Positions 4,015 through 5,784 of a stretch of DNA of 64,000 nucleotides are shown here, piece by piece. Origin of the DNA: Bdellovibrio sp. (GTDB lineage Bacteria; Bdellovibrionota; Bdellovibrionia; Bdellovibrionales; Bdellovibrionaceae). The notes below the pieces were generated by a model, which ran no database searches, was not told where the DNA came from, and saw only the letters and a list, made by a program, of their open reading frames with translations. The translations under genes and the position numbers were made by a program. The stretch covers positions 1-64,000 of the forward strand of contig JANYDD010000062.1 in NCBI GenBank assembly GCA_025359945.1, given 5' to 3'. Each line of letters starts with the position of its first letter. The stretch's first letter is position 1.

Positions 4015-5784
4015 TTAGTTTTTACTTCCGTGACGGGGACGATTTTTATTAAAAAAGTGTTCAAAAGAACTTTTGAACACTTGATTAAAAGCTTCTCCGC
4101 TTGTGCCCTTGTAAACGTAGATATCAAAAATTTCGCAATTTATGGTTTTACTGGGCGGACCAAAACGCTTGGGAATAAATTCGTGCATTTCATCGTGCTT
4201 TTGAGCGACAAAAAAATCATAAGGCCGCAGCTTGCCGGTGTTTTGATCTTTGTACCACTCCATATTATTGATCCAATATTCTAGTTCAAATCTTGGAGTC
4301 ACTTGATTGACTCTTACTTTCGAATGACTAAGTAATGACATGTATTTCGCCATCCAATACTCGCTTAGTCCTGATGTCAAATTTTCCTCTTGCACGGCTT
4401 GATCGAAGCATTGTTCCCAAGATCTGTATTCGTTACGCACTAATTGCGGCGGATAACTTAAACTGGGAAGAAAAAAGCCACCCAAACCAACCAAAGCTGC
4501 GCAAATAAAAAAATAATTCAGCCAATTTTTGTTTGATAGAAAACTTGTGAAAAATAAAATTCCTGCAGCCAAACCGATGATCGCAGTGGGCAGTAGGTAT
4601 CTAAAATTTCCCGGACCATGCCACATTTCCAATGCGGATATAAAAAACACCACCAAAATCACCTGAAAAAACAAAAATACCGACAAGGCACCAAACAAAG
4701 TTAAACGAGCTTTCAATTTCCAAAGATTCCACAAACCAGCAACGGTAACTAACGAGGGCACTAAAGAATATGCGGGGTTAGCTTTGAATTGTTCGCGCAA
4801 ATTTGATGTCACGTGATCCAGCTGATTTAAAAAACCATCCCACCACTTTGGCAAATCAATAAATTCAGGAGCAATCGCTGCTTGGGGTAAATGAAACCAT
4901 CCCAACGCTTCGATCGCCGGGGGTAAAAAATATCCTACTGAAGTTCCCAGCAAAACGGGAATGCCCCAAGTTTTTACAAAAAATTTCCAGCGATTTTTTT
5001 TGACTACAAAAAGATGGGTCAGAATTAAGGGACCCACAAACTGAAACGCAAACCACAGATCCGAAGCTGTGGCTAAAACACAGATCCAAAAAATCACCCA
5101 AGGCCTTCCTACCTATGCACATGACGCCAGCAAATTGGCCTTGTCGAATATTGTCGACTTGAATGCGCTCCAGTCGAACAAGACAGGTAGGTGGCGTCAT
5201 GTGCATACGTAAGAAGGCCTTCCCTGATTTTCGTGGTAAAAATCTCGAAGCCATAAAACCAAAAGGGGCAGACCCCAAAAAATCGTCAAAGTATGAATTG
5301 CCGGATCAAAGAGCGGAAGATCCCCGTAGCTGCCTTTCGATGACCAATGCGCCAACGGTAAGGACAAAACTAAACCAAAACTCAAAGTAGCTAAATATTT
5401 TTGAAATGCACAGAATTTACCCGCTTCAGGCAAGCTGACCAGTTGGTAAAATAAAAGCATATCAACAAACCAAATCGTCATCATAAAAAATTGGTGGGTC
5501 GATTTAAAATCAAAAGTTAGACTTCGAATTAAAAAGTACAATGGCCAATCCGGCAAAAAGGCTGGGGCTCGTAAAACCTGCCAGTCTTGAATTGAAATTC
5601 GGTCGACAAATAGATCCTGCCACAAGGCCTCGAGATACAAAATATCAGAGTTAATAAACCGCATCTGATTAATGCGACTGAAGATAAGCCAAGTCAGCAA
5701 GACCAAAGCCATCAACCCCAACAATACAACCAACTTTTGGATTAGATTTAAACTTAAAAAATCTTTGATGGGCGCAAATTTCAT
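4015..5784 (-). pseudogene. Polytopic membrane protein gene split by a 114-bp insertion
   Basis: Two minus-strand reading frames, 5784-5197 (195 codons) and 5099-4015, belong to one ancestral gene. The first reaches HENQGRP and then runs into inserted DNA and a TGA at 5197; the second resumes in the same frame with GRPWVIFW. Removing 114 bp (one copy of a 10-bp direct repeat plus the element) restores about 551 codons. The product would have many membrane segments in the N-terminal two thirds and a soluble C-terminal end (RSWEQCFDQAVQ to NKNRPRHGSKN). The plan resembles GT39/ArnT-like glycosyltransferases, but I see no sure catalytic motif. The C-terminal part could still be made from a GTG at 5097. 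Confidence 0.7.
5100..5223. mobile_element. Short palindromic insertion (MITE-like) with 10-bp direct repeats
   Basis: AAGGCCTTCC occurs at 5100-5109 and again at 5214-5223, bracketing 104 bp. The inner ends are 20-bp inverted repeats with one mismatch: 5110-5129 (TACCTATGCACATGACGCCA) and 5192-5211 (TGGCGTCATGTGCATACGTA). The centre contains a weaker GTCGACT/AGTCGAA stem. Flanking codons join in frame when one repeat and the element are removed, which supports insertion with target duplication. It carries no gene, so it fits a non-autonomous miniature element moved by a transposase elsewhere. The target core AAGGCCTT is itself palindromic. Confidence 0.75.

Follow-up and report, generated by a model that had tools for sequence, protein, structure and literature searches.

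A recently active MITE with IS1595-type ends interrupts a membrane-protein gene in a Bdellovibrio sp. genome

The DNA analysed here (the window, 64,000 nucleotides) lies on contig C94 of the Bdellovibrio sp. genome G000 (2.74 Mb, 106 contigs). It contains a gene for a 551-residue membrane protein, read on the minus strand, which is split by a short palindromic element, a MITE (Table 1). The product is truncated at residue 195: after the residues GRP the element supplies SYVCT and then a TGA stop codon (5199-5197, minus strand) located inside the terminal repeat. The first-pass annotation had stated that the reading frames before and after the insertion rejoin exactly (GRP-WVIFW), and they do so on the minus strand to give 551 aa. 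A Pfam search of the joined 551-aa frame yielded no domain. An empty site in relatives had been proposed as a check; a search of 90 relatives gave no uninterrupted ortholog of the gene. Two intact paralogs located at C54 (27-30% identity), however, span the junction in the alignment, and at C42 another copy of the MITE interrupts a third paralog.

Table 1. Features of the interrupted locus (window coordinates)
Feature	Position	Strand	Remark
MITE copy	5108..5213	+	106 bp, copy alignment
Left terminal inverted repeat CCTACCTATGCACATGACGCCA	5108..5129	+	
Right terminal inverted repeat CTTACGTATGCACATGACGCCA	5192..5213	-	2 mismatches to left repeat
Target duplication, left copy AAGGCCTT	5100..5107	+	8 bp
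Target duplication, right copy AAGGCCTT	5214..5221	+	8 bp
Open frame of the element	5108..5212	-	from the element's second base; LRMHMTPPTCLVRLERIQVDNIRQGQFAGVMCIGR in window copy
5' part of broken gene	5197..5784	-	residues to GRP, then SYVCT + TGA from element
3' part of broken gene	4015..5107	-	listed open frame starts at GTG, 5097

The boundaries of the element were set by alignment of 44 copies. The leading CC was present in 43 of the 44 copies and the trailing AAG in nearly all, independently of the flanking sequence. Because both are conserved across copies they belong to the element, and the target duplication is therefore 8 bp long. The palindromic element and the duplicated target recognised in the first-pass annotation are both present in the sequence, but they had been measured as 104 and 10 bp. 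A 10-bp duplication is ruled out by the conservation of the leading CC: the CC at the end of the presumed duplication consists of the left end of the element and a chance CC in the flank. The net insertion amounts to 114 bp whether it is counted as 106 + 8 or 104 + 10, and the statement that it brings in a stop holds. The terminal inverted repeats, previously given as 20 bp with one mismatch, are 22 bp long with two. The window copy deviates from the 44-copy consensus at two positions (G30 and A74), and four other copies in the genome are identical with it. The 106-mer has a fold z-score of -6 to -8. It carries no transposase gene, the longest open frame being 35 codons.

Search matches and fetched stretches of G000 revealed about 46 copies of the MITE (40 scored matches plus six partial or interrupted copies). 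Most are 96-100% identical; differences from the consensus number 0-4 in most copies, and mostly 0-2. These few differences, together with the five copies (that of the window included) that are identical to each other, indicate a recent burst. Perfect 8-bp duplications were found around 35 of the 41 full-length aligned copies, i.e. around the window copy and 34 others. The chance of a perfect 8-bp flanking repeat is about 1.5e-5 per copy, so 35 of 41 is far beyond chance, and the proposed test for many copies with common ends and duplicated targets was passed strongly. Among the remaining six copies one has a duplication with one mismatch, one (C69:50306) has a 7-bp duplication and four (C25, C26 twice, C96) have no matching flanks. 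The C96 copy adjoins an IS630-type element. Two flanks of the C26 copies pair with copies on other contigs (GAGATTTC shared by C26 and C63, CAATCCTT by C26 and C57; copies at G000:C26:213-318, C26:15307-15412, the end of C63 and C57:7947), which reflects either recombination between MITE copies or wrong assembly joins. The target sites lean to a palindrome, approximately ttaaC-nAAATTTn-G, and the palindromic target of the window copy fits this tendency. No copies were found in the phages, plasmids and viral contigs searched.

Three insertions could be compared with an empty site, which for two of them is a repeat within G000 and for the third lies in the DNA of a relative. The repeat that harbours the C43 copy occurs uninterrupted at C13:3012-3090 and C34:1-76, with 100% identity and a single AAGTCTTC. 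For the C91 copy an uninterrupted repeat of 120 bp with 89% identity lies on the same contig (L129:1026-1145). The third insertion, on the sister-lineage contig L104, has an uninterrupted counterpart in G047 that matches at 109 of 128 bases and contains a single TTCGCCCA; the G047 DNA is 86-88% identical with L104 on both sides of the insertion. Proteins of about 20 relatives also match both sides of the L104 insert and lack the insert itself.

An insertion sequence with ends like those of the MITE is present, intact, in the related MAG UBA2316 (L109:111-1062). Its ends, CCTACCTATGCAC(C/T)TGACGCCGGTAAA, agree with the MITE end CCTACCTATGCACATGACGCCAGCAAA at 26 of 29 bases (90%), including the outermost bases. 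It encodes a 291-aa protein that matches NF033547 with 118.8 bits (cut-off 75) and both PF12762 and PF12760 above their cut-offs; on these profile matches the protein is an IS1595-family transposase. No clear 8-bp duplication surrounds this intact copy. In G000 itself, contigs C20, C34, C47 and C69 break off within an IS that has the ends CCAACCTATGCACTTGACGCAAGT, and the sequences just inside these ends give translations resembling the N and C termini of an IS1595 transposase. A search for the interior of this IS in the G000 assembly brought up no more than a decayed fragment at C40, which is what a collapsed repeat would lead one to expect. A MITE copy (377-482) is situated a few hundred bases away from this remnant of an IS1595 transposase (L078:720-938). 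Members of the IS1595 family usually generate 8-bp duplications (PMC8101967; PMC12561309). The matching ends and the 8-bp duplications thus assign the MITE to the IS1595 transposase family. The first-pass annotation had suggested a possibly new family; searches of other collections did not find the sequence of the MITE, whereas its ends and duplications place it with IS1595. Beyond about 29 bp from the end the interior of the MITE is unrelated to the known IS, so that its descent from the IS by internal deletion is a conjecture.

Taken together, the sequence evidence makes it very probable that the element in the window belongs to a gene-less MITE that is present in high copy number, has been active recently and is mobilised by an IS1595-family transposase encoded elsewhere. 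The earlier description as a small non-autonomous element, a MITE, was correct, being supported by the copies, ends, duplications and empty sites. We strongly infer movement in trans by the IS1595 transposase, the IS of the own genome being seen from its ends alone. An IS1595-family transposase (ISXO2-like, zinc ribbon plus DDE) would bind the ends of the MITE, move it and join it to staggered cuts, giving rise to the 8-bp target duplication. In the window the element has entered the membrane-protein gene in such a frame that translation runs into a stop codon after five residues, and the 551-aa frame is split. Insertion in one orientation and one frame leaves a host gene readable with a 38-residue insert.

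The strong hairpin and the high copy number would also suit a REP/ERIC-like structural or regulatory repeat, or an RNA gene, that had not arisen by transposition. Such an origin, already disfavoured by the empty sites, is hardly credible in view of these sites, the target duplications and the approximately 17 copies inside genes. No Rfam family matched at its curated score; the sole match, to a miRNA, reached 36 bits against a cut-off of 99, and an RNA gene was rejected. Duplications of around 8 bp are produced by several IS families, and the MITE might belong to another of these, its interior not being IS-derived and the resemblance of its ends to the IS1595 element being coincidental or secondary. 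We consider this very unlikely, since the agreement with the intact IS1595 element extends to the outermost bases and a single genome contains ends of both the MITE and the IS type. IS630, the only other family whose ends were recovered near the copies, inserts at TA and has different ends.

Four MITE copies (C20, C57, C41, C96) have the IS630-family element of G000 (ends TAGTAGGTAACATGGGATAGTTAG, 337-aa transposase; L079, G000:C100:11500-13700) within them or at their edge, in three cases at the same TA of the MITE. What looked like a longer, 'autonomous' version of the MITE at these four places was rejected, as these are MITEs with the IS630-family element inserted at TA. In another genome, G010, a different element of 98 bp with related ends (CCAACATATGCACATGA.../CCAGCATATGCACTTGA...) lies between two copies of TAAATTAT (L098:1451-1548) and may be a further MITE of this IS group. 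G010 also has a lone IS1595-type end, CCTACCTATGCACTTGACGCCGGTAAT, at L108:6390-6409, for which no partner end was found on the 7.4-kb stretch analysed.

Both the MITE and the IS were also detected in three contigs (L104, L105, L107) binned as G132 (MAG JANXMF01), which belongs to another family. The uvrA gene beside the IS on one of these contigs is 93% identical with uvrA of G000 and at most 70% identical with that of any other relative, and an acyl-CoA dehydrogenase-like gene on another has its closest counterparts in family f1. Both genes point to misbinning, and a transfer of the MITE between families f1 and f4, which these contigs had suggested, was rejected; from the affinity of uvrA to G000 the contigs are taken as misbinned DNA of a sister lineage.

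Element plus duplication correspond to 38 codons, and one of the six frames of the MITE is open throughout; its peptide, read on the minus strand from the second base, is LRMHMTPPTCRVRLERIQVDNIRQGEFAGVMCIGR. Insertion in that orientation and frame thus leaves the host gene readable. The window gene reads the MITE in another frame, and other copies use the open one. Of the 17 copies located within frames of 150 aa or more, six (C85, C61 twice, C18, C88, C58) were read through, each adding 38 residues, and 11, that of the window included, broke the gene. At C69, one of these 11, in what we take by eye to be a type II NADH dehydrogenase gene, the 7-bp duplication shifts the frame. The sister-lineage L104 copy is read through in a conserved protein (AFAH-insert-FAHII), whose flanks are 86-91% identical with the protein of a relative despite the insert. 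The in-frame C88 protein (L139) matches Pfam DUF4423 in two stretches, the first of which ends at the insert.

The excess of in-frame insertions over the chance expectation of 1/6 is only suggestive (6/17, p = 0.05; 7/18, p = 0.02; stricter set 5/15, p = 0.09). It raises the question whether the MITE is a protein-inserting palindrome selected to stay translatable, as proposed for the Rickettsia palindromic elements (RPE), with gene disruption as a failed outcome; such selection would add to the MITE reading. In its favour are the length of 38 codons with one frame open, the read-through in six of the 17 gene insertions and in L104, the conserved flanks of the L104 protein, and the C58 copy, the most diverged of the in-frame copies, which is still open after four changes. 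On the other hand, one insertion in six is expected in frame by chance, one open frame of 35 codons among six is nothing unusual, and in-frame copies would become enriched simply because harmful insertions are lost. Given that the majority of gene insertions are disruptive, we regard selection for translatability as possible but rather improbable.

MITEs tied to IS1595 elements are already on record in the data of PMC3852290. According to Table 4 of that paper, the MITE linked to ISHwa6 (IS1595 family) in Haloquadratum walsbyi is 165 bp long and has seven copies, 25-bp repeats and 8-bp duplications. Like the present MITE it is short and gene-less, with IS1595-type ends and duplications of 8 bp; it differs in its archaeal host, greater length and fewer copies, and where PMC3852290 treats it no in-frame insertion is described. 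IS1595-family insertion sequences (ISXO2-like, with the intact example in L109) have the ends and the duplication length of the present MITE, which lacks a transposase gene and agrees with them over only about 29 terminal bases. MITEPye1 of Paracoccus yeei is likewise a bacterial MITE for which movement in trans is assumed; its hairpin fold has a comparable energy (-47.9 kcal/mol), but it has IS1182-type ends, is present in 1-3 chromosomal copies and is mostly intergenic (PMC11578231). RPE (Ogata 2000, 2002) are, in the account reviewed in PMC10969869, short palindromes inserted in frame that add peptide. In-frame palindrome insertions in protein genes are common to RPE and the present MITE (6/17 and L104 here). 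Unlike RPE, the present MITE resides in another host, can be assigned to a transposase family, shows clear 8-bp duplications and disrupts most of the genes it enters (11/17).

In the literature searched, no paper was found that pairs Bdellovibrio with the term MITE. What is described here is a clean burst of recent MITE activity in the Bdellovibrionales, an order of predatory bacteria, together with the likely transposase. Were an IS1595-driven MITE outside Rickettsia selected to be translatable and its 38-residue peptide tolerated, which we think doubtful, it would amount to an RPE-like system whose transposase family is known. With gene-breaking and read-through insertions side by side, the genome lets one ask how a mobile palindrome adds peptide segments outside Rickettsia.
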